Assembly (NCBI GenBank): GCA_002967695.1 | Contig: PUHN01000012.1 | Location: 1-64,000 of the forward strand | Length of the DNA stretch: 64,000 bases | Direction: 5' to 3' | Source of the DNA: Rhodobacteraceae bacterium WD3A24 | GTDB lineage: Bacteria > Pseudomonadota > Alphaproteobacteria > Rhodobacterales > Rhodobacteraceae | Part shown: piece by piece, positions 9,423 through 23,062 of the stretch | Layout: each line of letters begins with the position of its first letter | Position numbering within the stretch: position 1 is the first letter of the stretch | Notes under the pieces: generated by a model | Told to the model about the DNA's origin: nothing | Database searches by the model: none | The model's input: only the letters and a program-made list of their open reading frames with translations | Position numbers and translations under genes: made by a program

Positions 9423-10172
9423 TCAGGCGGGGGGCGGTGCCTCATGGCCCGACCTGGCGATCAGTTCGGGGAAATCGAGCACCTCGAATTGCGACGCCGA
9501 TCGCATGCCGAGAACCCCGTCGCGGACGTGTTGCTGAACGGCGCGGCTGATGCTTTCAACGGTGGTGCCGAGATACTGCGCGAGATCGGCCCGGCTGACC
9601 GGCAGGCGGACCATGGCGTTCCTGCCATCGGCCGAGACGCTGCAGCAGCTCTCCGGCCAGCGGCGGCACAGCAGGAGAAGAAAGCCCGCGAAGCGCTCCG
9701 TCACGCTGTGCCCGCTCACGAGCATCATCCACTCGCGCGCGGCCTCGAATTCGTGCAGCAGCGAGGCGAGCACGTTGTGCTCCAGCCGGGGGATGTCGTC
9801 CAGAAGGGTCCGAAAACGGCGCCGGTCGAAGGTGCGCAGCATCACGTCGGTGGCCGCCTCGGACTCGAAATCGGGCCGCGCACCATAGACCTGTCCGATC
9901 ATCTCGCCGGGCACGAGGAGCCCGACGATCTGGCGACGCCCGTCCAGCCGGGTTTTCTGGAGTTTCACGAAACCGTCCAGAACACTCGCCAGCATGGCGG
10001 GCTCTCCCTCGGCGTCGAGGATCGTCGCCCCCTTCGCGTATCGCTGCACACGCCCGATCGCGCTCAGCCGCGCCTGCTCCTGCTCGGTCAGACCGCTTTC
10101 GAGGGCGATGGCAGGCACGACGCGGCGCCGAGCCGGCCCGTGGGCCGGCACGTCACTCTTTGGCTCTGTCAT
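9423..10172 (-). CDS. Crp/Fnr-family transcriptional regulator without Fe-S cysteines
   Basis: 249 residues from the ATG at 10172 (a longer frame starts at 10202). The N-terminal cyclic-nucleotide-binding-like beta-roll (residues ~35-150) is followed by the dimer helix and a C-terminal helix-turn-helix with VSRADLAQYLGTTVESISR. The recognition helix E-S-I-S-R matches FNR (Glu, Ser, Arg contacts for TTGAT half-sites). The FNR-type N-terminal cysteine cluster is absent, so its signal is probably not a labile 4Fe-4S centre. It is divergent from the FnrL-like gene and shares the intergenic region with its FNR box. Confidence 0.88.
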   Translation of the reverse strand: MTEPKSDVPAHGPARRRVVPAIALESGLTEQEQARLSAIGRVQRYAKGATILDAEGEPAMLASVLDGFVKLQKTRLDGRRQIVGLLVPGEMIGQVYGARPDFESEAATDVMLRTFDRRRFRTLLDDIPRLEHNVLASLLHEFEAAREWMMLVSGHSVTERFAGFLLLLCRRWPESCCSVSADGRNAMVRLPVSRADLAQYLGTTVESISRAVQQHVRDGVLGMRSASQFEVLDFPELIARSGHEAPPPA

Positions 10173-10342
10173 GACGGACTCGCACCCCTTCACCCGCGCC
10201 ACTCATACCGCACGGAACACCCCACTGGCCCGGAAAGCATTTCCCCCGCGCGTAGTCGGTGCCCATTGTCTTTCAAGATCATATCACACAGGGCGCGCGT
10301 TCCAAACGCACCATCTCGGCCGCACGGCCCGATCGCGACACC

Positions 10343-10356
10343 TTGATCGGGATCAA
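10343..10356. promoter_or_regulatory. Perfect FNR box TTGAT-CGGG-ATCAA
   Basis: A perfect consensus FNR site centred at 10349.5. A -10-like TACACT lies at 10379-10384, so a start near 10391 would place the box at -41.5, the class II activating position. It fits positive autoregulation of the FnrL-like gene; it could also affect the divergent regulator. Confidence 0.85.
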
Positions 10357-10447
10357 GGCGCGCTCCAACCTCGGGAGATACACTTCATGGTTGAAGGGTC
10401 GCGCCAGCGGCGCGCCCGATTCGCGCCGGAGCCGGAAGGAGGGCGCC

Positions 10448-11248
10448 TTGCGAGACCCCAGGGACGACCACCATTGCCCCGGATGCGCCCATGACGGCGG
10501 CGCGATCTGCCGGCACGGATTCGGCCGGCCCGGGCGGGGCCAAAGCCTCGCCGCCGGTCAGCCTCTCCGGCAACGGGGCATGCGCCCGGGCCTTTACGGG
10601 GTTCTGCAATCCGGGCTGCTGCGTCTCGACGGCGTCGATCTGTCCGGCCGGCGGCGCATGCTCGGCCTTGTCGTGCCGGGCGAGCCGGTCGGCGACCCCA
10701 CGGGCGGCGCGGCGCCCGAGAGCCGGCTGACGGCCGTGCTGGATGCGCGCATCTGCCGCTTTTCCGCCGAGCCCGCCGGGCGGCTGACCGACTGCGCGCC
10801 CGAGTTCCGCCACGCGGTCCTGCGGGCCTTTTCCGCCCGGCTCGCGCGGTTGCAGACGATGATGTGGATGCAGGCGATGCTGGGCACGACGGATCGCATC
10901 GCGGCGCTGCTGATGATGGCGAGCCGTTTCATGCCGACCCGGCGGCTGGAGGGGGACGGCGTGCGGATTCACTTCGTCATGCCGCGTCAGGACGCGGCGG
11001 ACATGATCGCGACCACCACCGAATCGATCAGCCGCGCGACGCATGAGCTCGAGCGCAACGGCCTGATCGGGATACGCGACCCGGCCACCTTCGATGTCTT
11101 CGACCTCGCCCGACTGGCCGAGCGCGCCTCGCTCGACGCCGCCACACTCGACTCGCTCTTCCCGCACGCTGTCGGCGACGGCGTCGCCGCGGCGCACCAC
11201 CCCGCAGATGCGCCCGAAGCCGCGCCGAGGCCGCGGGCGCGTTCCTGA
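10448..11248 (+). CDS. FnrL-type oxygen-sensing regulator (4Fe-4S), TTG start
   Basis: 266 residues if started at TTG 10448, which has a strong GGAAGGAGG ribosome site and places the conserved N-terminus correctly; a GTG start further upstream (10259) would add unrelated sequence and include the FNR box. The N-terminus has HCPGCAHDGGAIC, a C-x2-C-x7-C cluster as in FnrL/FnrN, with a fourth Cys near residue 103 in ARIC, enough to ligate a 4Fe-4S cluster. The C-terminal helix-turn-helix ends in TTTESISR, with FNR-type recognition residues. Expected to dimerise when anoxic and bind TTGAT-N4-ATCAA. It is the natural candidate to control the boxes at 11752-11808. Confidence 0.85.
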   Translation: MRDPRDDHHCPGCAHDGGAICRHGFGRPGRGQSLAAGQPLRQRGMRPGLYGVLQSGLLRLDGVDLSGRRRMLGLVVPGEPVGDPTGGAAPESRLTAVLDARICRFSAEPAGRLTDCAPEFRHAVLRAFSARLARLQTMMWMQAMLGTTDRIAALLMMASRFMPTRRLEGDGVRIHFVMPRQDAADMIATTTESISRATHELERNGLIGIRDPATFDVFDLARLAERASLDAATLDSLFPHAVGDGVAAAHHPADAPEAAPRPRARS

Positions 11249-11280: not shown

Positions 11281-11688
11281 TCACCACCGCCGGCCGGCCC
11301 GCCAGGCCCCGATGGCGGATGCCGCGCGCGGCCGCCGCCGGCAGAGCAAGTCGAGGACGGCCGCCGCGCAAAGCTCGGCCTCGGCGCGGGCCATGCCGGG
11401 AAACACCGCGCTGATGCGTGCGGCGATCAGGTCATCCCGACGGGCGGGGCGGGGCCGCGCCGCGCCGGGGTGCCAGTCCTCGAAATAGAGCCCCCGCAGG
11501 ATCACCGGCAGACCGCGCCCGAGCGCGGCGGCCTCGTCGGGCGGGACGGCATCGCGGATCGCATGCAGCGCCGCGCACAGCATCCGGCACGCCGCCATCC
11601 TGTCGGCCCAGCCGAGTCCGTCGCAGATCGCGTCGACCCACTCCCCCGCGCGTTGGGGGGCGCGATCGAGCGTGTCGATGCCGGTCAT
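11281..11688 (-). CDS. DUF2267 protein
   Basis: 135 residues from ATG 11688 (an ATG at 11694 is equally possible). Family features are clear: a W-x-x-x-I-x-x-x-L-G-W segment near residue 18, LCAALHAIRDAVP, and LRGLYFEDWHP near residue 70. DUF2267 proteins are small helical proteins of unknown function that I recall often accompanying stress, redox or Fnr-linked genes. It is convergent with the FnrL-like gene (33 bases between stops) and divergent from the E1 operon, whose FNR-type boxes lie just upstream of it and could serve both directions. Confidence 0.8.
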   Translation of the reverse strand: MTGIDTLDRAPQRAGEWVDAICDGLGWADRMAACRMLCAALHAIRDAVPPDEAAALGRGLPVILRGLYFEDWHPGAARPRPARRDDLIAARISAVFPGMARAEAELCAAAVLDLLCRRRPRAASAIGAWRAGRRW

Positions 11689-11751
11689 GCCCATGACAAA
11701 GTCCGCGAAGCCGCCTTTGCGCGATACTGCGCCATGGCTCGCCGGCGGGCA

Positions 11752-11765
11752 TTGACAGCTGTCAA
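11752..11765. promoter_or_regulatory. Upstream FNR/DNR-type box TTGAC-AGCT-GTCAA
   Basis: A perfect palindrome with Crp/Fnr-superfamily half-site spacing, centred at 11758.5. It lies 43 bp (about four helical turns) upstream of a second box. Confidence 0.65.
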
Positions 11766-11794
11766 CTGCGCGCGGCGCGTGCGGGCCGCCCCGC

Positions 11795-11808
11795 TTGACG
11801 GCCATCAA
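11795..11808 (+). promoter_or_regulatory. Proximal FNR-type box TTGAC-GGCC-ATCAA
   Basis: Second Crp/Fnr-type site, centred at 11801.5. One half-site is the exact FNR half ATCAA, the other TTGAC. A weak -10 candidate TAGCCT lies at 11831-11836, which would put the box at -41.5 relative to a start near 11843, upstream of the E1 alpha gene. Confidence 0.65.
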
Positions 11809-11879
11809 TGATCGGAGCCGCCCGCGGGCCTAGCCTTCTGATGCGACAGGATACGAATCGCCGGAAGGGAGGAGATACC

Positions 11880-13115
11880 ATGCCAAATTCAAGAGACGAC
11901 TCGACGCCGGAGGTCGAGGCGCTGGACCGCGTCGACACGCCGGAAGGGGCCGGCCCGACCCGGCGAGGCTTTCTCAGGATCGCCGGGCTCGCCGGGGTCG
12001 CGGCCTCGCTGGCGCCGCAAATCGCGCGGGCGAACGGGCGGATCGGCTACCACGCCGCCGATCTGAGCGACGAGAGGCTGACCGACCTCTACAGGATGAT
12101 CCTGCGCATCCGCTGGCACGAGCGCACGATGGCCGACAAGATGCTCAGCGATCCCGACTATCGCGGCTACAATCACTTCTATGCCGGGCAGGAGGCCGTC
12201 GCCACGGGCGTCTGCGCGGCGCTGCGCAACGACGGCCCCTTCGACCAGATCGACGTCGTCTATTCCACGCACCGCCCGTCGGGGCACGCCCTGGCCAAGG
12301 GCGTGGACATGCGGGCGATGTGCGCGGAAAACGATTTCCGCGCCACGGGGCTGAACAACGGCTACGGCGCCGAGATGCACCTGTCCGACCCATCGGTGGG
12401 CTTCATCGGCGCCGACGGCATGGTCGGGCCGGGTCCGGTGCTGGCGCAGGGGTCGGCCTTCTCCTTCCGCGCGCGCGGAAGCGATCAGGTCTCGGTCGTC
12501 TTCGGCGGCGACGGCACCTATGCCACCCCGCATTTCCACAGCACGCTCAACAACGCCAAGCTGCTGGATCTGCCCTTCATCTATGTGCTGGAGAACAACC
12601 TCTATCACCAGTACGCGCATTACTCCTATTCGTCGCCCCACTACGACATCGCCGATGCGGCGCGCGCCTACGGCATCCCCGCCGAGGTCGTGGACGGCCA
12701 GGACGTGATGCAGGTCTACAACGCTGCCTATGAGGCGGTCGAGCGCGCCCGCGCGGGCGAGGGCCCGACCTTCATCGAGGCCAAGACCTACCGCTACTAC
12801 AACCACTGGGGCGCACCGGGCGCCGAGGTCGGGCAGCTGGGGGCCTTCGGCTATGACCCGCTGGCGATCAGCTCTTTCCGCCCCGAGCGCGAGGTTCGCA
12901 ACTGGATGCAGCGCGACCCCGTCGATATCTGCCGGGCGACGCTCGTCGACTGGGGTGTGCTCAACGCCGAGCAGGCCGCCCAGATCGAGGAGGACATCCG
13001 CGCCGAGGTGGACGAGGCCTTTGCCTGGGCGATGGAGCAGCCGCTCTGCAATCCCGAGGACGGGGTCAAGAACGTGTTCGCCACCGGCGAGGTTCCGGCG
13101 CGCCAGTTCGGCTGA
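11880..13115 (+). CDS. Tat-exported thiamine-diphosphate dehydrogenase E1, alpha subunit
   Basis: 411 residues; ATG 11880 follows a GGAGG site. Residues 1-50 form a twin-arginine signal peptide: TRRGFLR (Arg 28-29), a hydrophobic core and an ARA cleavage region. The mature part is a 2-oxoacid/acetoin dehydrogenase E1 alpha: HFYAGQEAVATG, THRPSGHALAKG, GYGAEMHLSD, and the ThDP/Mg site starting FGGDGTY (~210) and ending LENN ~25 residues later. E1 alpha enzymes are normally cytoplasmic and pass acyl groups to a lipoyl E2; a Tat signal implies periplasmic action. The beta subunit and two cytochromes c follow in the same operon, with no E2/E3. The substrate (pyruvate, other 2-oxoacid or acetoin) is not determined. 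Confidence 0.88.
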   Translation: MPNSRDDSTPEVEALDRVDTPEGAGPTRRGFLRIAGLAGVAASLAPQIARANGRIGYHAADLSDERLTDLYRMILRIRWHERTMADKMLSDPDYRGYNHFYAGQEAVATGVCAALRNDGPFDQIDVVYSTHRPSGHALAKGVDMRAMCAENDFRATGLNNGYGAEMHLSDPSVGFIGADGMVGPGPVLAQGSAFSFRARGSDQVSVVFGGDGTYATPHFHSTLNNAKLLDLPFIYVLENNLYHQYAHYSYSSPHYDIADAARAYGIPAEVVDGQDVMQVYNAAYEAVERARAGEGPTFIEAKTYRYYNHWGAPGAEVGQLGAFGYDPLAISSFRPEREVRNWMQRDPVDICRATLVDWGVLNAEQAAQIEEDIRAEVDEAFAWAMEQPLCNPEDGVKNVFATGEVPARQFG

Positions 13116-13142
13116 GCACCGCGCCAACAGGAGGATTTCGAA

Positions 13143-14114
13143 ATGACCGAGAAGAGCTGGATTTACGCGGTGCTCGAAGCCGCGCAGCACGAGATGCGGG
13201 AAGACCCCGCGATGACCTGGATATTCGAGCTGACCCCGCCGGTGGCGTCGAACCCCGACATGCCGGTGATCAACCTCGAGACTGAGTTCGGCCGCCGCCG
13301 CGTGGTCAATACCGGCATCGACGAGAACTGGATGGCCTCGACCGTGATCGGCGCCGGCCTCGCCGGGTCGCGGTCGGTGACCTACATCCCCTATCAGGGC
13401 GCGGCGATGCCCTTCCAGGTGATCCAGAACCACGCCGGCAAGCTGCGTCACATGACCGGCGGCGTCGCCTCGATTCCGGTGGTGTTCATCATCGAACTGA
13501 CCGGGCAGACGCCCGGCTTTGCCGGGCAGCATTCGGACTACGAGCTCGACACCGCCTATGCCCATATCGCGGGCGTGCGCACGGTCGTCCCCTCGACACC
13601 CTATGACGCCAAGGGAATGATGACGGCCGCGATCCGCAGCCCCGACCCGGTTGTGTTCCTCAACCCCGCCGGGCTGCGCACCCTGAGCGGCGAGGTTCCC
13701 GACGAGCCCTACGAGGTGCCGCTCGACAAGGCCGCGGTGCGCGTCGAGGGGAGCGATCTGACCATCGTGAGCTCGGGCCCCGGCATGCCGGTATCGCTGG
13801 AGGCCGCCGAGCGGCTCGCCGAGGAGGGCATCAACGCCGAGGTCATCGATCTGCGCGTGCTCAAGGAGATGGACACCGAGACGCTGGTCACCTCGGTGAG
13901 CAAGACGCGCAAGCTTCTGACGGTGGATCAGTCCTACTACACGCTCTGCCCGGGGGCGGAGGTGATCGCCCGCGTGGCCGAGAATGTCGAGGGCGTGCGG
14001 TACAAGCGGGTGGCCTTCCCCGATGCGCCGCCGCCGGCCTCGCCCGAGATGTTCCTCTGGATGCGGCCGGACGCCGAGAACGTGGCCGAAGCGGCCCGTC
14101 AACTGGTTGGATGA
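13143..14114 (+). CDS. Thiamine-diphosphate dehydrogenase E1, beta subunit
   Basis: 323 residues, the usual E1 beta length; ATG 13143 is preceded by AGGAGG. Family features include PVINLETEFG, GIDENWMASTVIGAGLAGSR (short core), YIPYQGAAMPF, and the catalytic region GFAGQHSDYELD, with the conserved His near residue 130. VVPSTPYDAKGM and the C-terminal transketolase domain (VIDLRVLKEMD, LTVDQS) follow. It has no signal peptide, although its alpha partner carries a Tat signal. If the complex acts in the periplasm, beta must be co-exported folded with alpha (hitchhiker mode), which Tat permits. It starts 27 bases after alpha. Confidence 0.88.
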   Translation: MTEKSWIYAVLEAAQHEMREDPAMTWIFELTPPVASNPDMPVINLETEFGRRRVVNTGIDENWMASTVIGAGLAGSRSVTYIPYQGAAMPFQVIQNHAGKLRHMTGGVASIPVVFIIELTGQTPGFAGQHSDYELDTAYAHIAGVRTVVPSTPYDAKGMMTAAIRSPDPVVFLNPAGLRTLSGEVPDEPYEVPLDKAAVRVEGSDLTIVSSGPGMPVSLEAAERLAEEGINAEVIDLRVLKEMDTETLVTSVSKTRKLLTVDQSYYTLCPGAEVIARVAENVEGVRYKRVAFPDAPPPASPEMFLWMRPDAENVAEAARQLVG

Positions 14115-14171
14115 CCATCACGGATGGCGGGCCCGTGCGCCCGCCCTCCGCTCTTTGGCAAGGAAATGACC

Positions 14172-14504
14172 ATGAGCTACGAGGATACCGCGATGACGCA
14201 ACGCAGCGCGGCGGGCGCCCGCGGCACCGAGGCCGCGCCCGACGACGGCGCCTGTCCGGCCTGCGGCGCGGGCCAGCCGGGCCCCGGCACGATCGCCACC
14301 GTGTTTCGCCATGGCGAAAGCTGGGCGGTGGTGCGCGGCATTCCTGCCGCGATCTGCCCCGCCTGCGGCGAGGAATTCGTCGACGACGCCACGGCGATGC
14401 GCCTCGACATGATGCGCGGCCAGGACTTCGCCGATGAGCGCCCCGCAGAGATGATGGAAGTCCCCGTCTTCGACTACCGCCCGACCGGCGGGAGGGCCTC
14501 ATGA
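14172..14504 (+). CDS. YgiT-type zinc finger protein
   Basis: 110 residues from ATG 14172, chosen because AAGGAA lies ~8 bases upstream (ATG 14166 is too close). Two C-x2-C pairs, CPACGAGQPG near residue 31 and CPACGEEFVDD near residue 68, with the intervening VFRHGESWAVVRGIPA, match the YgiT/MqsA N-terminal zinc-binding domain. There is no C-terminal HTH and no toxin neighbour, so this is not a standard MqsRA pair. It has no signal peptide. It overlaps the first cytochrome gene by 4 bases, so it belongs to the operon. A folding, regulatory or maturation role is inferred from position only. Confidence 0.75.
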   Translation: MSYEDTAMTQRSAAGARGTEAAPDDGACPACGAGQPGPGTIATVFRHGESWAVVRGIPAAICPACGEEFVDDATAMRLDMMRGQDFADERPAEMMEVPVFDYRPTGGRAS

Positions 14505-15088
14505 GCCCGCGGGCGACCCCCGTCGCCGTGCGGCGCCCGCGCATGTGGCTGGTTGCCGGGGCGGCCCTTGCGGCGGCGGGCGCGGCGCTCGCGCAGCAGG
14601 GGATGGAGTTCATCCCCGATGGCGGCCGCACGCTGGCGCTGGAGATCTTCGGCGACGATCCCGAACGACTGGCCGAGCTTGCCGCGCGCGACCTCGAGGC
14701 GGCGGACTGGCGCGAGATGATCGCCGAGGAAGCCGGAGAGGACGAGGAACTCGACGAGACGCGGATTGCCACGCTCGCCAGCTACCTGGCGATCAACTTC
14801 CCGGTGGAGGCCGCCGCCGAGCTTGCCGAGATGGAGGCCGAGGCACTTCCCGACGCCCTGCCGCGCGACGGCAAGGATCTCGCCGTGCGGCACTGCCAGT
14901 CCTGCCACGGGCTGTTCTCGGGATATCTGTCGCATGACCGCGACGCGACGGGCTGGACCCAGACCTTCAGCGCGCCCTTCCATCAGGAGATTCCGATGAG
15001 CGATATCGAGATCGAGACCTTCGCGAACTACTCGGAATTGAACATGCCCCTCTCGATCGAGGACGTGCCGCCCGCGTGGCGCTTCTGA
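14501..15088 (+). CDS. Periplasmic monoheme c-type cytochrome (first of a pair)
   Basis: 195 residues. Signal peptide at residues 1-~32 (hydrophobic core LVAGAALAAAGAALA). The mature N-terminus begins with FIPDGGRTL, also found in the next gene, then a ~70-residue acidic helical domain, then the heme motif CQSCH (residues 132-136). Downstream, FHQEIPMSD offers a His and a Met as candidate distal ligands. ATG 14501 overlaps the zinc finger gene stop. It probably accepts electrons in the periplasm; the E1 complex encoded just upstream is the natural donor. No known cytochrome family is recognised for the N-terminal domain. Confidence 0.85.
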   Translation: MSPRATPVAVRRPRMWLVAGAALAAAGAALAQQGMEFIPDGGRTLALEIFGDDPERLAELAARDLEAADWREMIAEEAGEDEELDETRIATLASYLAINFPVEAAAELAEMEAEALPDALPRDGKDLAVRHCQSCHGLFSGYLSHDRDATGWTQTFSAPFHQEIPMSDIEIETFANYSELNMPLSIEDVPPAWRF

Positions 15089-15120
15089 CCCGGCCTTCTC
15101 GCCAGAAAGGACAGTCTCTC

Positions 15121-15732
15121 ATGCTCGCAAATGCTCTCGCACGCAGACCTGGCCCCGCCGGCCGCCCGCTGGCGGTCGCCGCCGCGCTCGCGCTGGCGCT
15201 GCCGCTCGGCCCCGCGCTGGGCCAGGAAGACGACATCATGAGCTTCGTTCCCTCGGGCGGGCGCACCCTGCTTGCCGAGGTGATCGAGGCCGGCGCGGCG
15301 GAGGGCGCCATCGATTCCATGCTCGCGCAGGATCTCGACGCCGAGGGATGGCGGGAGTGGATCGAGGCCAACCGGGACGCCGTGGCCGGGCTCGACGGGC
15401 TCGACGAGTACGAGACACGCACCCTGGCCAACTATCTCGACACCTATGCCCCCCTCGACCCGGAGGTGCTGAGCGATCCGGCGGATGCGCTGCCGCAGGA
15501 CGGGCGCGACATGGCGATGCGCAACTGCCAGTCCTGCCACATCATCACCGTGACGATCACGCAGGACCGCACCCATGACGCCTGGCTCGGCACGCTGGGC
15601 AACCCCAGCCATGTCGAGATCGAGCTGTCGGAAGAAGAGCGCGATCTGCTGGCCGACTATCTCGTGGTCAATGCCGGCATCCCCATCGAGCAGGTGCCAC
15701 CGGCCCTGCGGGCGGGCGGCGCCTCGTACTGA
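15121..15732 (+). CDS. Periplasmic monoheme c-type cytochrome (second of a pair)
   Basis: 203 residues from ATG 15121 (AGAAAGGA upstream). Signal peptide residues ~1-36. It parallels the previous gene throughout: FVPSGGRTL, then AQDLDAEGWREWI (counterpart of ARDLEAADWREMI), heme motif CQSCH at 136-140, and a C-terminal IPIEQVPPALR (counterpart of LSIEDVPPAWR). There is no Met after the heme motif; the shared His in PSHVEIEL aligns with FHQEIPMS of the first cytochrome and is the likeliest distal ligand. The pair looks like a tandem duplication and probably forms a short electron-transfer chain for the E1 complex. Confidence 0.85.
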   Translation: MLANALARRPGPAGRPLAVAAALALALPLGPALGQEDDIMSFVPSGGRTLLAEVIEAGAAEGAIDSMLAQDLDAEGWREWIEANRDAVAGLDGLDEYETRTLANYLDTYAPLDPEVLSDPADALPQDGRDMAMRNCQSCHIITVTITQDRTHDAWLGTLGNPSHVEIELSEEERDLLADYLVVNAGIPIEQVPPALRAGGASY

Positions 15733-15759
15733 TCCGGCAGCGGGTGAGGGGAGCGGGAG

Positions 15760-17205
15760 ATGGGCTTCACATCCCTCACCTTTTTTCTGTTCGTCCCCGC
15801 GGTGCTCGCCGTCTTCGCGGCGCTGCCCGCGCGCTGGCGGGTGGGCTGGCTGGGGCTGGCCAGCCTCGTCTTCTACGGAAGCTTCGGCTGGGTGAACCTC
15901 GCCTATCTGGCGGCGGTCTTCGCCGTCGTCCAGATCACCGTGCTGGGGCTCGCCCGCGCGCGGGAAGGCCAGCCGCGCCGTGCGGTGCTGACGGCGGCGA
16001 TCGTGGCGCTGATCGGCGGGCTCGCCTTCTCCAAGTTCGGCGATTTCGCGCTGGCCGAGCTGGCCCGCCTCACGGCGCTGCCGCTGGTGCAGACCGGCAT
16101 CGCCTCGCCGGCGGGCTTTTCCTTCTACGTCTTCATGGCCACGGCCTACATCATCGACATCGCGCGCGGCGACGTCACCCCGCGCGGGCCGCTGAACAAT
16201 CTCGCCTTCCTCGCCTGGTTTCCCAAGATCCTCGCCGGGCCGATCGAACGCGCCGGCCCGTTCATGCCGCAGCTTGCCGCGGGGCTGCGCCTGCGCCCCG
16301 ATCTTGCCGTGCTGGGGCTTCAGCTCATCCTCTGGGGGCTGATCAAGAAGGTCGTCATCGCCGAGAGCCTCGCCCCCACGGTGGACGGCGCCTTCGAGAT
16401 CGCCGCCTACGCGCCGCCGATGGAGCTGTTGATCAGCCTCTATTTCTTCGCCTTCCAGCTTTACTGTGATTTCTCGGGCTATACCGACATCGCCATCGGG
16501 CTGTCGCTCCTGTTCGGTCTGACCCTGTCCGAGAACTTCCGCCGCCCCTACCTTTCGCGCAGCGTCTCCGGGTTCTGGGCGGACCGCTGGCACATCTCGC
16601 TGGGCCACTGGTTCCGCGACTACCTCTATCTCCCGCTGGGCGGCAGCCGCGTGGGCGCGCTGCGCCGGCATGCAAACCTGCTGGCCGTCTTCGCGGCGAG
16701 CGGGATCTGGCATGCGGGTCTGGGCTATGGCGTGGGCTGGGCGTTTCTCGTCTGGGGGCTGATGAACGGCGTCTATGTCTCCCTCGGCGTGATGCTGCGC
16801 CCCGTGTGGCGGGCCCTCGGCGCGCGTTTTCCCCGGATCGCGGCGAGCCGGGTGCTGGCCGTGGTGCAGGTGCTCGTCACCTTCCATCTGATCCTCGTCT
16901 CATGGGCCTTCTTCCGCGCCGGGAGCGTCGAGCAGGCGATGCTCGTGCTGCGCCGGATCGGCGGCGCGCTGGACGAGATCGCCGCCATCGCACGAAGCTT
17001 TCCCTATACCGGCATGCACATGCTCGGCGCGGGCCTTATCGTGGCGCTGATCGCGGGCGAGATCCTCTCAGAGCGCCGCCCCATCATCGACCGGCTGCGC
17101 AACTGGCCCACCGCGCCGCGCTGGGCGGTGTGGTATGCGGGGCTGGCCGCGCTCGTGATCCTGGGCCGCTGGCAGGAAACCGGCTTCATCTACATGGCGT
17201 TCTGA
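15760..17205 (+). CDS. MBOAT-family O-acyltransferase (AlgI-like)
   Basis: 481 residues with ~11 hydrophobic helices. AlgI-type signatures: FPKILAGPIERA (~residue 155), DFSGYTDIAIGLSLLFG (~240), RWHISLGHWFRDYLYLPLGG (~280) and the catalytic SGIWHAG (His ~317). The second His often seen in this helix (WGxxHG) is Asn here (LVWGLMNG). AlgI-type proteins move acetyl groups from cytosolic acetyl-CoA across the inner membrane to a periplasmic SGNH partner. Start 15760 with GGGAG site, 27 bases after the second cytochrome; the SGNH-like gene follows after 7 bases. The acceptor (a polysaccharide or lipid) is not identifiable. Confidence 0.88.
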   Translation: MGFTSLTFFLFVPAVLAVFAALPARWRVGWLGLASLVFYGSFGWVNLAYLAAVFAVVQITVLGLARAREGQPRRAVLTAAIVALIGGLAFSKFGDFALAELARLTALPLVQTGIASPAGFSFYVFMATAYIIDIARGDVTPRGPLNNLAFLAWFPKILAGPIERAGPFMPQLAAGLRLRPDLAVLGLQLILWGLIKKVVIAESLAPTVDGAFEIAAYAPPMELLISLYFFAFQLYCDFSGYTDIAIGLSLLFGLTLSENFRRPYLSRSVSGFWADRWHISLGHWFRDYLYLPLGGSRVGALRRHANLLAVFAASGIWHAGLGYGVGWAFLVWGLMNGVYVSLGVMLRPVWRALGARFPRIAASRVLAVVQVLVTFHLILVSWAFFRAGSVEQAMLVLRRIGGALDEIAAIARSFPYTGMHMLGAGLIVALIAGEILSERRPIIDRLRNWPTAPRWAVWYAGLAALVILGRWQETGFIYMAF

Positions 17206-17212
17206 AGGGATC

Positions 17213-18175
17213 ATGACCGAGCGCGCACCCCCCTCCCCGTTTCGGCCGCGCCGCGTCGCGGCCTTTGTCGGGATCGGCCTTGTCCTCTATGCGCTGATCC
17301 TGACGGCGGCGGAAATCCATGTGCGCCGCACCGGCGACATCAATCCGGTCCACCGCATCGTCACCGCCGAGCCGGCGCATCACGACTGGATCATCCTCGG
17401 CGCCTCGCACGCGATGCCGCTCGACTTCGCCGAGTTCGGCGCGCGGATCGAGGCCGAGACGGGCCAGAGCGTGCTCAACCTCGCCGCGCCCGGAACCGGT
17501 CCGCTCTATCACCGCTTCGTCGCGCAGCGCTACTTCGCCGGGAGCGAGGCCGATGCGGTGCTTGTGGTCATCGACAGCTTCGGCTTCTACGCCGAGCGCT
17601 GGAACGAGGGGCGCTTTGCCGACCGCGATCTGCTGGCGCGCACGCCGCTCGATGTCACCACTCTGGGCCTGCTGGCGCGCTTCCTCGCCCTCGGCGTGGA
17701 CCCGCGCGCGCTGCTCGACTACGCCAGCGGCTTTTCCAAGATCAACAACCACGACCGGTTCGAGCCCGACCGATGGGAGGCCGAGGACAATTTCGACCGC
17801 GCCCCGCGCCCCTCGGACTACGCGGACTCCGAGCGCATCGACTATCTTTTCCCCAACGGCCCCGACACGGCGATGCGCAGCCGCTACATGGACGAGCTCA
17901 CCGCCCTGATCGGCGACATCCGCGCGGCCGGCGCGCGCGTCGTGGCGATCAAGCCGCCCATGCCGGACCGCTTCCGCACCCGCCTGCCAGGCGAGGACGC
18001 CTTCGACACCGCCCTGCGCGCGACACTCGACGAGGCGGAGGTGGCCTTTCACGACCTCTCGGAGGCGCTGCCCGAGCCGCGCTACTATTTCGACCCCGAC
18101 CACCTCAACCGCGACGGCGCGCAGCGCTTTCTCGACGAGCATCTCGCCGCCATCCTCGCCGGCGATGGCGCGTGA
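17213..18175 (+). CDS. Membrane-anchored SGNH-hydrolase-like partner of MBOAT
   Basis: 320 residues. An N-terminal signal anchor (residues ~17-35) places the rest in the periplasm. The SGNH/AlgX-like fold is indicated by ILGASHAMPLDF (Ser ~66 in place of the GDS block), VVIDSFGFY, and the C-terminal catalytic pair FDPDHLNRDGAQRF. Such proteins transfer or hydrolyse acetyl groups and commonly follow MBOAT genes. It begins 7 bases after the MBOAT stop, so the two are coupled. It is last in the co-directional run that starts with the E1 alpha gene and is convergent with the MFS gene (115-base gap without a clear terminator). Confidence 0.8.
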   Translation: MTERAPPSPFRPRRVAAFVGIGLVLYALILTAAEIHVRRTGDINPVHRIVTAEPAHHDWIILGASHAMPLDFAEFGARIEAETGQSVLNLAAPGTGPLYHRFVAQRYFAGSEADAVLVVIDSFGFYAERWNEGRFADRDLLARTPLDVTTLGLLARFLALGVDPRALLDYASGFSKINNHDRFEPDRWEAEDNFDRAPRPSDYADSERIDYLFPNGPDTAMRSRYMDELTALIGDIRAAGARVVAIKPPMPDRFRTRLPGEDAFDTALRATLDEAEVAFHDLSEALPEPRYYFDPDHLNRDGAQRFLDEHLAAILAGDGA

Positions 18176-19610: not shown

Positions 19611-19841
19611 GACGAATCTCGTTTGTCGCGGGCGGCGGGCTTGGGTCGGGCGCGCCATGCCGTGAACGCCCTTGGCGGCCCCCACCCTGCCCTGCCCCGT
19701 GTTTGGGAGCAACTCCCGCCCGTTCGCCTCCTTGCGCGATCGCATGGACCCTGGCCGCGCCCGGGCGCTGTCCGTTCGCTCACCCGCTCACGCGGGCGCC
19801 CCATGCACCGATATGTTCGAGGAAACATTTTGCGCGGCGGT

Positions 19842-19859
19842 CAGGGCTTGCTAGCCCTG
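19842..19859. promoter_or_regulatory. Inverted repeat CAGGGCT-TGCT-AGCCCTG upstream of the ECF sigma gene
   Basis: A perfect 7-bp inverted repeat with a 4-base loop, 27 bases before the GTG start of the sigma factor. It could be an operator or an mRNA leader hairpin. A GGAAAC element (19821-19826) lies just upstream and resembles an ECF -35, but no matching -10 is evident. Confidence 0.3.
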
Positions 19860-19885
19860 TGGGGAGATCATCGGGAGGGAGGGAC

Positions 19886-20422
19886 GTGTTCGACCGCGAT
19901 CATCACGAGCACCTCGGGCAGATCAAGAGCCGTCTTTTCGGCTATGCCTACGCGCTGACGCGCGACGCCGAGCAGGCCGCCGACCTTGTGCAGGACTGCA
20001 TGGTGCGCGGCATGTCGAGCCGCAACGTCCCGCGCGAAGCGCGCGCCTTTCGTGCCTGGATGTTCACGATCCTGCGCAATCTGTGGATCGACCAGATGCG
20101 CTCGTCCCGACGCGAGCGCGAAACCTGCGCCGAGATCGAGCACAGCCAGGCCGACCCGCCGGCGACCCCGCCCGAGGAGGTGGTGGTCAACCGTCTCGCC
20201 GTGCGCCAGGCCTTCCTGCGGCTGAGCAAGGACCACCGCGACGTTCTGGCACTGGTCGATATCGCCGGTTTCAGCTATGAGGAAGCCGCCGAAATCCTCC
20301 AGGTTCCCAAGGGGACGATCATGAGCCGGGTGAGCCGGGCACGTTCGATGCTGTCGCAGATACTGGGCGAGATGCAGGTCATCCCGCTGTCGCGCGCCCG
20401 CCAAGGGATGCGCAATGGCTGA
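19886..20422 (+). CDS. ECF-type RNA polymerase sigma factor
   Basis: 178 residues from GTG 19886, which has GGGAGGGAGGG upstream. Region 2 is visible as HLGQIKSRLFGYAYALTRD, DLVQDCMVRG and AFRAWMFTILRNLWID; region 4 as FLRLSKDHRDVLALVDIAGFSYEEAAEILQVPKGTIMSRVSRAR (in short motifs). It overlaps the downstream anti-sigma gene by 8 bases, the usual arrangement for a sequestered ECF pair. The sulfite dehydrogenase and its cytochrome follow. In Sinorhizobium meliloti ECF factors RpoE1/RpoE4 respond to sulfite and drive sorT, so a sulfite-responsive role is a reasonable inference here. Confidence 0.9.
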   Translation: MFDRDHHEHLGQIKSRLFGYAYALTRDAEQAADLVQDCMVRGMSSRNVPREARAFRAWMFTILRNLWIDQMRSSRRERETCAEIEHSQADPPATPPEEVVVNRLAVRQAFLRLSKDHRDVLALVDIAGFSYEEAAEILQVPKGTIMSRVSRARSMLSQILGEMQVIPLSRARQGMRNG

Positions 20423-21206
20423 GGACGATCTGCCCTTCGAGACGCTGAGCGCCTATGTCGATGGCGAGCTCCCGGCCGACGAGGCGGCGCGGGTGGCCCA
20501 GCTTGCGGCCGCGGAGCCGCGCACGGCGCGGCGGCTCGCCGCGCTTCAGCAGCTGCGCGCCGGCGTGGCGAGCGTGCCGCCGGAGATGACGGAGCTTCCC
20601 CGGCCGCCAGCCCCCCCGCGCCAGCGCGGCCGGATGCCCCTGTTCGGCGCCGCGGCCGCGGCGGTGCTAGCCCTTGCCCTCGGGCTGGGCTGGTGGACGA
20701 TGACGGGAACCGGACAACAGCAGACCGGCCCGACAAGCTTCGCCGCGATGCTCGCCAGCCACGACGCCTGGCAGGAGGCCCGCAGCGCCGCCGTCCCCGC
20801 GCAATGGCCGGTGTCGGCGGGGCTTTCGCCCGCGCGCACGAGCGAACTGATGGCGGCCACTGGGCTGGAGCTGGTGCACTCGGAAATCGTCACCCTGCCC
20901 GGCGGGACGCGGGCGCGGCACTCGGGCTATCTCGGATCGCGCGGCTGCCGGCTCAGCCTGTTCGAAATCCCGCGCGACGGCGAAACCCCGGATCTGCCGC
21001 CGACACCGTTCTCGCAAAGCGACGACGTGCTGCAGGCGAGTTGGCACACCGACGCGATGCGCTATGTCATGATCGCGCGCGACATGAACAGCGTGCGGTT
21101 TGCCACCATCGCCGACTCGATGCGCGCCGCCGCTCAAGCCTCGGCGCGCCAGGAGCGCGAGCTTCTCGCATCGCTTGAGAACGCCCGGCAGCGCTGCCTC
21201 GTCTGA
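20415..21206 (+). CDS. Membrane anti-sigma factor
   Basis: 263 residues. The N-terminus LSAYVDGELPADEAARV is the anti-sigma (zf-HC2-like/RskA-like) region but lacks the zinc His-x3-Cys-x2-Cys set. A single transmembrane helix lies at residues ~75-95 (FGAAAAAVLALALGLGWW), followed by a ~165-residue periplasmic sensory domain. It should hold the ECF sigma factor at the membrane until a periplasmic signal is sensed. It overlaps the sigma gene. In context the signal may be sulfite or related oxidised sulfur species. Confidence 0.85.
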   Translation: MAEDDLPFETLSAYVDGELPADEAARVAQLAAAEPRTARRLAALQQLRAGVASVPPEMTELPRPPAPPRQRGRMPLFGAAAAAVLALALGLGWWTMTGTGQQQTGPTSFAAMLASHDAWQEARSAAVPAQWPVSAGLSPARTSELMAATGLELVHSEIVTLPGGTRARHSGYLGSRGCRLSLFEIPRDGETPDLPPTPFSQSDDVLQASWHTDAMRYVMIARDMNSVRFATIADSMRAAAQASARQERELLASLENARQRCLV

Positions 21207-21413
21207 TCGCGCGGCAGCGTTCCGCCCCGCGCCGGCGCCGAGATATTTTTTTCTCCCCGGACGGAATTTCGCGACACCTCCGTTCGTCTTTACCTGTGCC
21301 GGCGCGATGATGTGCCGGACCATGGGCGGTGGCGCACGGAATGATAGGCAAGGCGCCCCCGGCGGTCAGTCTCCGTCGCGCCCCGGTCGGTCAGACAAGG
21401 GAGGAAATGCGCA

Positions 21414-22718
21414 ATGCACAAGGAAGAACGCGGCATTGGCGAACTTTACAGCGAAGACCCGGAACGCGCGGACGAGCTGCTCTGGGGGCGCAAGACGGGC
21501 CCCAGCCGGCGCGGTTTCCTGCGCGGGGCGGGGCTGGCCTCGATGGGCGCGGCGCTCGGCGCGACCATCCCGTTCCACGCGAACATGCCCGCCGGGCTTA
21601 TCCCGGCCGCCTTCGCACAAGGGATCGACTTTCAGCTCGAGGGCAAGGATCCGGGCCTGACGGTGCTCAACGACCGGCCCGTCAACATCGAGACCCCGCC
21701 GCATCTTCTCGATGACGACGTCACGCCGGCCAGCCGGCATTTCGTGCGCAACAACGGCACCCTGCCCGACCCGATGCCGCTGTCGGACTGGCGCCTGACC
21801 ATCGACGGCGAGGTCGAGACGCCGATGGAGCTCAGCTATGACGACCTGATGAACGATTTCGATCACGTCACGCTGCGCCTTCAGATCGAGTGCGGCGGCA
21901 ACGGCCGCGCCGCCTACGACCCGCCGGCGCGCGGCAACCAGTGGACCACGGGCGCCATCGCCAACTCCGAATGGACCGGCGTGCGCCTGCGCGACATCCT
22001 GCACGCCGCGGGCCTCAAGCAGAGCGGGACGCATACGGGTCACTTCAGCTATGACGAGCACCTTTCAGGCAACCCCGATCTCGACCCGATCTCGCGCGGC
22101 GGGCCAATCAACAAGATGATGGATCCGCACACCATCATCGCGCTGAAGATGAACGGCGAGGACATCCCCGCCGCCCACGGCAACCCGTGCCGGGTCATCG
22201 CGCCGGGCTGGCCGGGCTCGTTCAGCCAGAAGTGGCTGACCCGCATCTGGGTGCGCAACCAGGTCCATGACGGCACCAAGATGACCGGCCAGTCCTACCG
22301 CGTGCCGCGCTACCCCGTGGCGCCGGGGACCGACGTGCCCGAAGAGGACATGATGTTCATCGAGAGCATGCCGGTGAAATCGCTGGTGACCTTCCCCGAA
22401 GCGGGAACCGAGGTCGCCGCCGGCATGCCCTTCGAGGTGCGCGGCCAGGCCTGGGCCGGCGACAACGAGGTCGCCGCGGTCGATGTCTCCTTTGATTTCG
22501 GCGCGACCTGGCAGCGGGCCGATCTTTCGCCCCCGCCGAACCGCTACAGCTGGCAGCGCTGGCGCGCCAATCTGCGCCTGCCCATGGCCGGCTACTACGA
22601 GATCTGGGCGCGCGCGACCGACGACGAGGGCGTCAGCCAGCCGATGGTCGTGCCGGGCTGGAACCCGCGCGGTTATCTCAACAATCAGTGTCACCGCATC
22701 CACATGATGGCGGTGTGA
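21414..22718 (+). CDS. Periplasmic sulfite dehydrogenase, molybdenum subunit (SorT/SorA-like)
   Basis: 434 residues. Tat signal with SRRGFLRGAGLASMG (Arg ~31-32), needed because the Mo cofactor is inserted before export. The sulfite oxidase fold is clear: the molybdopterin-ligating Cys in IECGGNGR (~159), NSEWTGVRLRDIL, GNPCRVIAPGWPG, and a C-terminal dimerisation domain with VDVSFDFGATW and NPRGYLNNQCHRI. It oxidises sulfite to sulfate and passes electrons to cytochrome c. A c-type cytochrome gene follows after 26 bases. The 207-base upstream gap should hold its promoter, probably read by the ECF sigma factor. Confidence 0.92.
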   Translation: MHKEERGIGELYSEDPERADELLWGRKTGPSRRGFLRGAGLASMGAALGATIPFHANMPAGLIPAAFAQGIDFQLEGKDPGLTVLNDRPVNIETPPHLLDDDVTPASRHFVRNNGTLPDPMPLSDWRLTIDGEVETPMELSYDDLMNDFDHVTLRLQIECGGNGRAAYDPPARGNQWTTGAIANSEWTGVRLRDILHAAGLKQSGTHTGHFSYDEHLSGNPDLDPISRGGPINKMMDPHTIIALKMNGEDIPAAHGNPCRVIAPGWPGSFSQKWLTRIWVRNQVHDGTKMTGQSYRVPRYPVAPGTDVPEEDMMFIESMPVKSLVTFPEAGTEVAAGMPFEVRGQAWAGDNEVAAVDVSFDFGATWQRADLSPPPNRYSWQRWRANLRLPMAGYYEIWARATDDEGVSQPMVVPGWNPRGYLNNQCHRIHMMAV

Positions 22719-22744
22719 GCGACAGGACGGGAAACGGAGTGGAA

Positions 22745-23062
22745 ATGAAGCGATTTTCCCTTGGAAGCGGGGCGGCCTTGGCCGCCCTGCTCGCGCTGGC
22801 CGCCCCCGCGGTGGCCCAGGACAACGGTGAGGCGTACGAGTTCGCGCCCCTGCCGCCGGGCGAGGGCGCGGAAGAGGTATATTACAACTGCCGGGCGTGC
22901 CATTCCCTGCGCATCGTCGTCCAGCAGGGGCTTTCGCGCGATGTCTGGGACGAGGTTCTCACCTGGATGGTCGAAAAGCAGGGCATGTATGAAATGCCCG
23001 CCGAGACGCGCGAGACGGTTCTCGACTACCTGGCGGAAAACATCGGCGCTGACGACCGATAG
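22745..23062 (+). CDS. Cytochrome c subunit/acceptor of sulfite dehydrogenase (SorU/SorB-like)
   Basis: 105 residues. Sec signal peptide (residues 1-~24, LAALLALAAPAVAQ), heme motif CRACH near residue 49, and a Met-containing GMYEMPAE that supplies the distal ligand. ATG 22745 chosen because the frame upstream is unrelated. It is the expected electron acceptor of the adjacent sulfite dehydrogenase, sending electrons towards cytochrome oxidase. The rho-independent terminator 27 bases after its stop ends the unit. Confidence 0.9.
   Translation: MKRFSLGSGAALAALLALAAPAVAQDNGEAYEFAPLPPGEGAEEVYYNCRACHSLRIVVQQGLSRDVWDEVLTWMVEKQGMYEMPAETRETVLDYLAENIGADDR

Follow-up and report, generated by a model that had tools for sequence, protein, structure and literature searches.

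Two predicted FNR-type promoters arranged back to back between an exported-E1/cytochrome operon and a divergent DUF2267 gene

A seven-gene operon for an exported E1 enzyme and cytochromes c

The stretch of DNA analysed here (64,000 nt, hereafter the window) carries a seven-gene operon on its forward strand. The first gene (11880..13115, +) encodes an E1 alpha subunit (PF00676) with a twin-arginine export signal, the arginine pair of which was invariant in 14/14 aligned E1 alpha orthologues. The second (13143..14114, +) encodes the E1 beta subunit (Transket_pyr, Transketolase_C), in which no export signal was seen. It is followed by a gene for a small CxxC protein (14124..14504, +), whose zinc-ribbon matches were weak and below the cut-off and whose position is conserved in orthologues. 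Two genes for putative monohaem cytochromes c come next (14501..15088 and 15076..15732, both +). Each was recognized in the sequence by a CQSCH motif and each is conserved; the first gave a weak Cytochrome_CBB3 match, below the cut-off, and the second gave no Pfam match. The operon ends with genes for a DltB-like acyltransferase of the MBOAT family (15760..17205, +; PF03062) and an SGNH/GDSL-like protein (17213..18175, +; weak matches below the cut-off), both of which occupy conserved positions.

This gene order (11880-18175) was kept in nearly all loci uncut by a contig end, and the operon spans Alpha- and Betaproteobacteria. Nothing relevant to an exported E1/MBOAT operon was found in the literature searched, subscription journals being mostly outside that search, and the operon appears to be undescribed there. 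Genes resembling acyl-CoA/acetate-CoA ligases were found near several copies of the operon; acetate as a product would fit such neighbours. Further downstream in the window, at 19703-23062, a gene for an ECF sigma factor and an anti-sigma-like gene are followed by genes for a Tat-exported molybdopterin oxidoreductase (sulfite-dehydrogenase-like) and a monohaem cytochrome c.

The proximal box and the E1-operon promoter

Two FNR-type boxes precede the operon. The proximal box, TTGACGGCCATCAA (11795..11808, +), is an exact match, and the distal box, TTGACAGCTGTCAA (11752..11765, -), is a perfect palindrome. Their centres, at 11801.5 and 11758.5, are 43 bp apart; the earlier note had described two FNR-superfamily boxes at this spacing, and both proved to be exact palindromes at 11752-11808. 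The pattern TTGAY-N4-RTCAA occurred three times in the window, as compared with 0.10 expected from shuffles, and 31 times in the whole genome (3.36 Mb), as compared with once for a reversed control pattern, an excess of about 30-fold. The genome regulon was read from individual stretches of the genome sequence. Sites in it separate a ccoN-type oxidase gene from a divergent Usp-like gene (names from sequence) and a hemN-like gene (from sequence) from fnrL (by model), which is the pattern expected for an FNR regulon. FNR-type activators are usually oxygen-sensing. Some TTGACAGCYGTCAA sites apparently lie within or overlap coding frames (C40, C48, C51 and C56) and may be chance occurrences. A box identical to TTGACGGCCATCAA was present at L028 (contig C47:21476-21489). 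It is flanked by a multihaem cytochrome c-like gene and a phosphoribosyl-pyrophosphate-synthetase-like gene, and TATGGT lies at a distance of 21 nt on its cytochrome side.

A -10-like hexamer, TAGCCT (11831..11836, +), starts exactly 22 nt past the proximal box, and from its position the transcription start of the E1 operon would be near 11843. The -10 hexamers of the window are weak matches (3/6 here), and such hexamers were individually weak throughout. The usual position of a -10 element is -12 to -7, so that a hexamer at 22 nt implies a box centred at -41.5, and one at 21 nt a box centred at -40.5. Judged in this way, the proximal box, an exact TTGA-N6-TCAA palindrome, would be centred at -41.5 of the E1-operon promoter, in agreement with the earlier proposal that it sits at that distance from a plausible start.

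Conservation was assessed in E1-operon orthologues, 13 from the family sample and about 50 from named records of Rhodobacteraceae, Hyphomicrobiales and Betaproteobacteria. A box with a score of at least 8 was present in 46/51 upstream regions from Alpha- and Betaproteobacteria, as compared with 3.2 in dinucleotide shuffles. A score of at least 12 was reached in 28/51, as compared with 0.05 in shuffles, and the unshuffled DNA of these loci gave such scores at a rate of 0.0086 per 81-nt window. An xAxxxT hexamer lay exactly 22 nt past the box in 28/46 orthologues and 21 nt past it in 14/46, while no other offset accounted for more than 8. We conclude that the E1-operon promoter is, as far as can be predicted from its sequence, a conserved class II FNR-type promoter, ordinary in kind. 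FNR-type control of the operon had been put forward in the earlier note, with non-conservation of the boxes upstream of homologous E1 operons named as a point that would tell against it; the conserved box and its fixed -10 spacing uphold the prediction.

In Escherichia coli, 19 of the 23 mapped promoters activated by FNR have their box within 4 nt of -41.5 (PMC3688515). The promoter described here resembles those class II promoters in having a single palindromic box at about -41.5 and a -10 element at fixed spacing, although transcription start and activation were measured in E. coli and both are deduced from sequence in WD3A24 (PMC3688515). The boxes also share their form with sites bound in vivo by FnrL of Rhodobacter sphaeroides, a member of the same bacterial family, which include TTGAC-N4-ATCAA and TTGAC-N4-GTCAA (PMC2908626). 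No E1 operon was seen in the passages of that study considered here (PMC2908626).

Palindromes of this kind might arise by chance in GC-rich DNA, and the sites within coding frames indicate that single boxes can be accidental. Such an origin is nevertheless extremely improbable in view of the conservation in 46/51 upstream regions with fixed -10 spacing and of the controls with shuffled and real DNA; for the proximal box, conservation refutes it. Both boxes are real and conserved, and are predicted docking sites for FNR-type activators.

The distal box and the divergent DUF2267 gene

On the other side of the boxes, a divergent gene (~11281..11694, -) encodes a DUF2267 protein (PF10025, E 1e-15) and is without a strong Shine-Dalgarno sequence in the window. 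This gene, whose promoter fits the distal box, had been overlooked earlier, as had a further box at 10343-10356. A -10-like hexamer, CAGTAT (11724..11729, -), is directed outward and lies exactly 22 nt from the distal box, with an inferred transcription start near 11717. The distal box is therefore most readily assigned to the DUF2267 gene, as its -41.5 box.

A second box with a score of at least 10 within 120 bp was found in 8/46 orthologues, as compared with 0.46 expected, and its spacing to the proximal box at these loci was 40, 43, 43, 44, 62, 72, 99 and 104 bp. An outward xAxxxT hexamer lay exactly 22 nt from the distal box in 6/8 loci and at 23 nt in one more, while an inward one at 22 nt was found in 0/8. 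Given a background hexamer rate of 2.9%, the outward bias has P ~2e-8 if the loci are independent, a value that overstates their independence because the orthologues are related by descent. The outward genes at the seven distal-box loci where the gene was read were of five kinds: DUF2267 in the window, Usp (L050 and L083), cytochrome c (L104), APH/AAA kinase (L100), and acetate-CoA ligase, which was assigned by model in L113 and from similarity to L113 in L093. Elsewhere in the genome, two boxes occur in each of two further divergent intergenic regions, at a spacing of 35 bp in L038 (C57:7850-7898) and of 57 bp in L027 (C41:22402-22472); in both, as in the window, an outward hexamer lies 22 nt from the left box.

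A second sample consisted of 30 DUF2267 genes of the family, mostly away from any E1 operon. A box lay within ~160 nt of 18/30, and 12 of these also had a hexamer at 21-22 nt. In several of the nearest DUF2267 homologues the box centre was 61 to 74 nt ahead of the start, the distance in the window being 64. The genome's second DUF2267 gene, L188 (C37:40985-41332), likewise has an FNR-type box, GTGACGTGCGTCAA, with CAGACT at 22 nt. The outward hexamer and the boxes at unlinked DUF2267 genes thus explain the distal box by a DUF2267 promoter.

The earlier note had taken both boxes as a pair acting on the E1 operon, and this part of it was not supported. In such a tandem operator, the E1 promoter would be served by both boxes, and the distal one, at -84.5, would enhance or limit the action of the proximal one, possibly through two different regulators. 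The spacing of 43 bp, about four helical turns, would suit this arrangement, as would the distal boxes 40-44 bp away in three relatives and the presence of two adjacent Fnr-type regulators. The second box of a tandem operator is expected to be conserved, helically phased and without a promoter of its own, but 38/46 orthologues have no distal box, the spacing ranges from 40 to 104 bp, the -10 hexamers point outward (6/8) rather than inward (0/8), and DUF2267 genes elsewhere have the same box. The orientation of the distal box, its conservation pattern and the DUF2267 genes elsewhere rule out a tandem operator as the main reading, and we regard one as unlikely; the distal box may also affect E1 from -84.5. 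We conclude that 11694-11880 most probably contains two back-to-back class II FNR-type promoters, predicted with one box each, for the E1 operon and the DUF2267 gene.

A related arrangement is found in Dinoroseobacter shibae, in which FnrL and Dnr form a cascade and single bidirectional Fnr/Dnr sites lie between divergent operons (PMC5398030). WD3A24 is similar in having several Crp/Fnr regulators in one bacterium, one of which is predicted to control another, and divergent operons under predicted Fnr-type control (PMC5398030). In D. shibae one shared site serves both directions, whereas in WD3A24 each direction has its own box (PMC5398030).

Regulators and the predicted circuit

Two Crp/Fnr genes lie beyond the DUF2267 gene. 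regA (9423..10202, -; HTH_Crp_2, cNMP_binding) encodes an FnrL/FixK-like regulator, and regB (10448..11248, +; HTH_Crp_2) an Fnr-type regulator with cysteines, its TTG start being accompanied by an AAGGAGG Shine-Dalgarno sequence. Both genes are real and an ESISR recognition helix is present in each, as expected from the earlier description of two adjacent Fnr-type regulators with FNR-like helices. Four HTH_Crp_2 genes of the genome exceeded the cut-off: regA, regB, a genuine fnrL (C108, 457 bits against a cut-off of 300) and ftrB (C52, 337 bits against a cut-off of 211). With the FnrL model, regA scored 146.6 bits and regB 59.5 bits, both under the curated cut-off of 300. The cysteine cluster of an FNR-type iron-sulphur sensor was absent from regA, both in its sequence and in the alignment. 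regB has an N-terminal C-x2-C-x7-C (CPGCAHDGGAIC) and a later, fourth cysteine (ICRF) in its sensor domain, a putative iron-sulphur sensor motif.

A third FNR-type box, TTGATCGGGATCAA (10343..10356, +), lies ahead of regB, with the hexamer TACACT (10379-10384) exactly 22 nt downstream. This suggests a regulatory cascade. Boxes were also found near regA/regB homologues in several other loci; L097 (CACCCT) was the only one of them with a clear hexamer at 22 nt, and gene starts in these loci are uncertain, so that we place less confidence in the regB promoter than in that of the E1 operon.

The local regulators might control the E1 operon alone, in response to redox or to some other signal rather than to oxygen by way of FnrL. 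In several Rhodobacteraceae the operon is adjoined by regA or regB homologues, and the box centre is N-GCC in 8/10 loci counted with a linked Crp/Fnr gene as compared with 7/36 others. However, most orthologous E1 operons have the box with no regA/regB homologues nearby, and the bias in the N-GCC centre is confounded by kinship. The N4 centre, considered as a signature of the local regulators, was moreover a feature picked post hoc and gives a hint only. Exclusive control by regA and regB is accordingly possible but doubtful. The occurrence of the box mostly away from these genes makes FnrL or its counterpart the likeliest general activator, and regA and regB would form a lineage-specific layer.

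Under the arrangement of two back-to-back promoters, the exported-E1/cytochrome operon would be activated by an FNR-family dimer bound at -41.5 to the proximal box, and the DUF2267 gene by a second dimer on the distal box, at -41.5 of the oppositely directed promoter. Activity of an FNR-type activator, most likely at low oxygen, would switch on the operon and the gene together, and FnrL (or regB itself) would raise regB through the third box. We infer binding, activation, the oxygen signal and the acting regulator at these boxes.

More tentatively, and with rather less confidence than in the promoters themselves, we propose that the Tat-exported, thiamine-diphosphate-dependent E1 acts outside the cytoplasm, where it oxidises a 2-oxo acid and hands the electrons to the operon's own cytochromes c. 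In Alpha- and Betaproteobacteria it would constitute an uncharacterised respiratory module, induced at low oxygen through the conserved class II FNR-type promoter and, in some lineages, accompanied by a regB cascade below FnrL. Reading the -10 spacing in both directions across homologues separates a tandem operator from back-to-back promoters. The finding would give low oxygen, or some other FNR-type signal, as a condition for the expression of a seven-gene operon that is widely conserved and of unknown function, and would tie that operon to genes for DUF2267, Usp and acetate-CoA ligase, which are seemingly under shared control.
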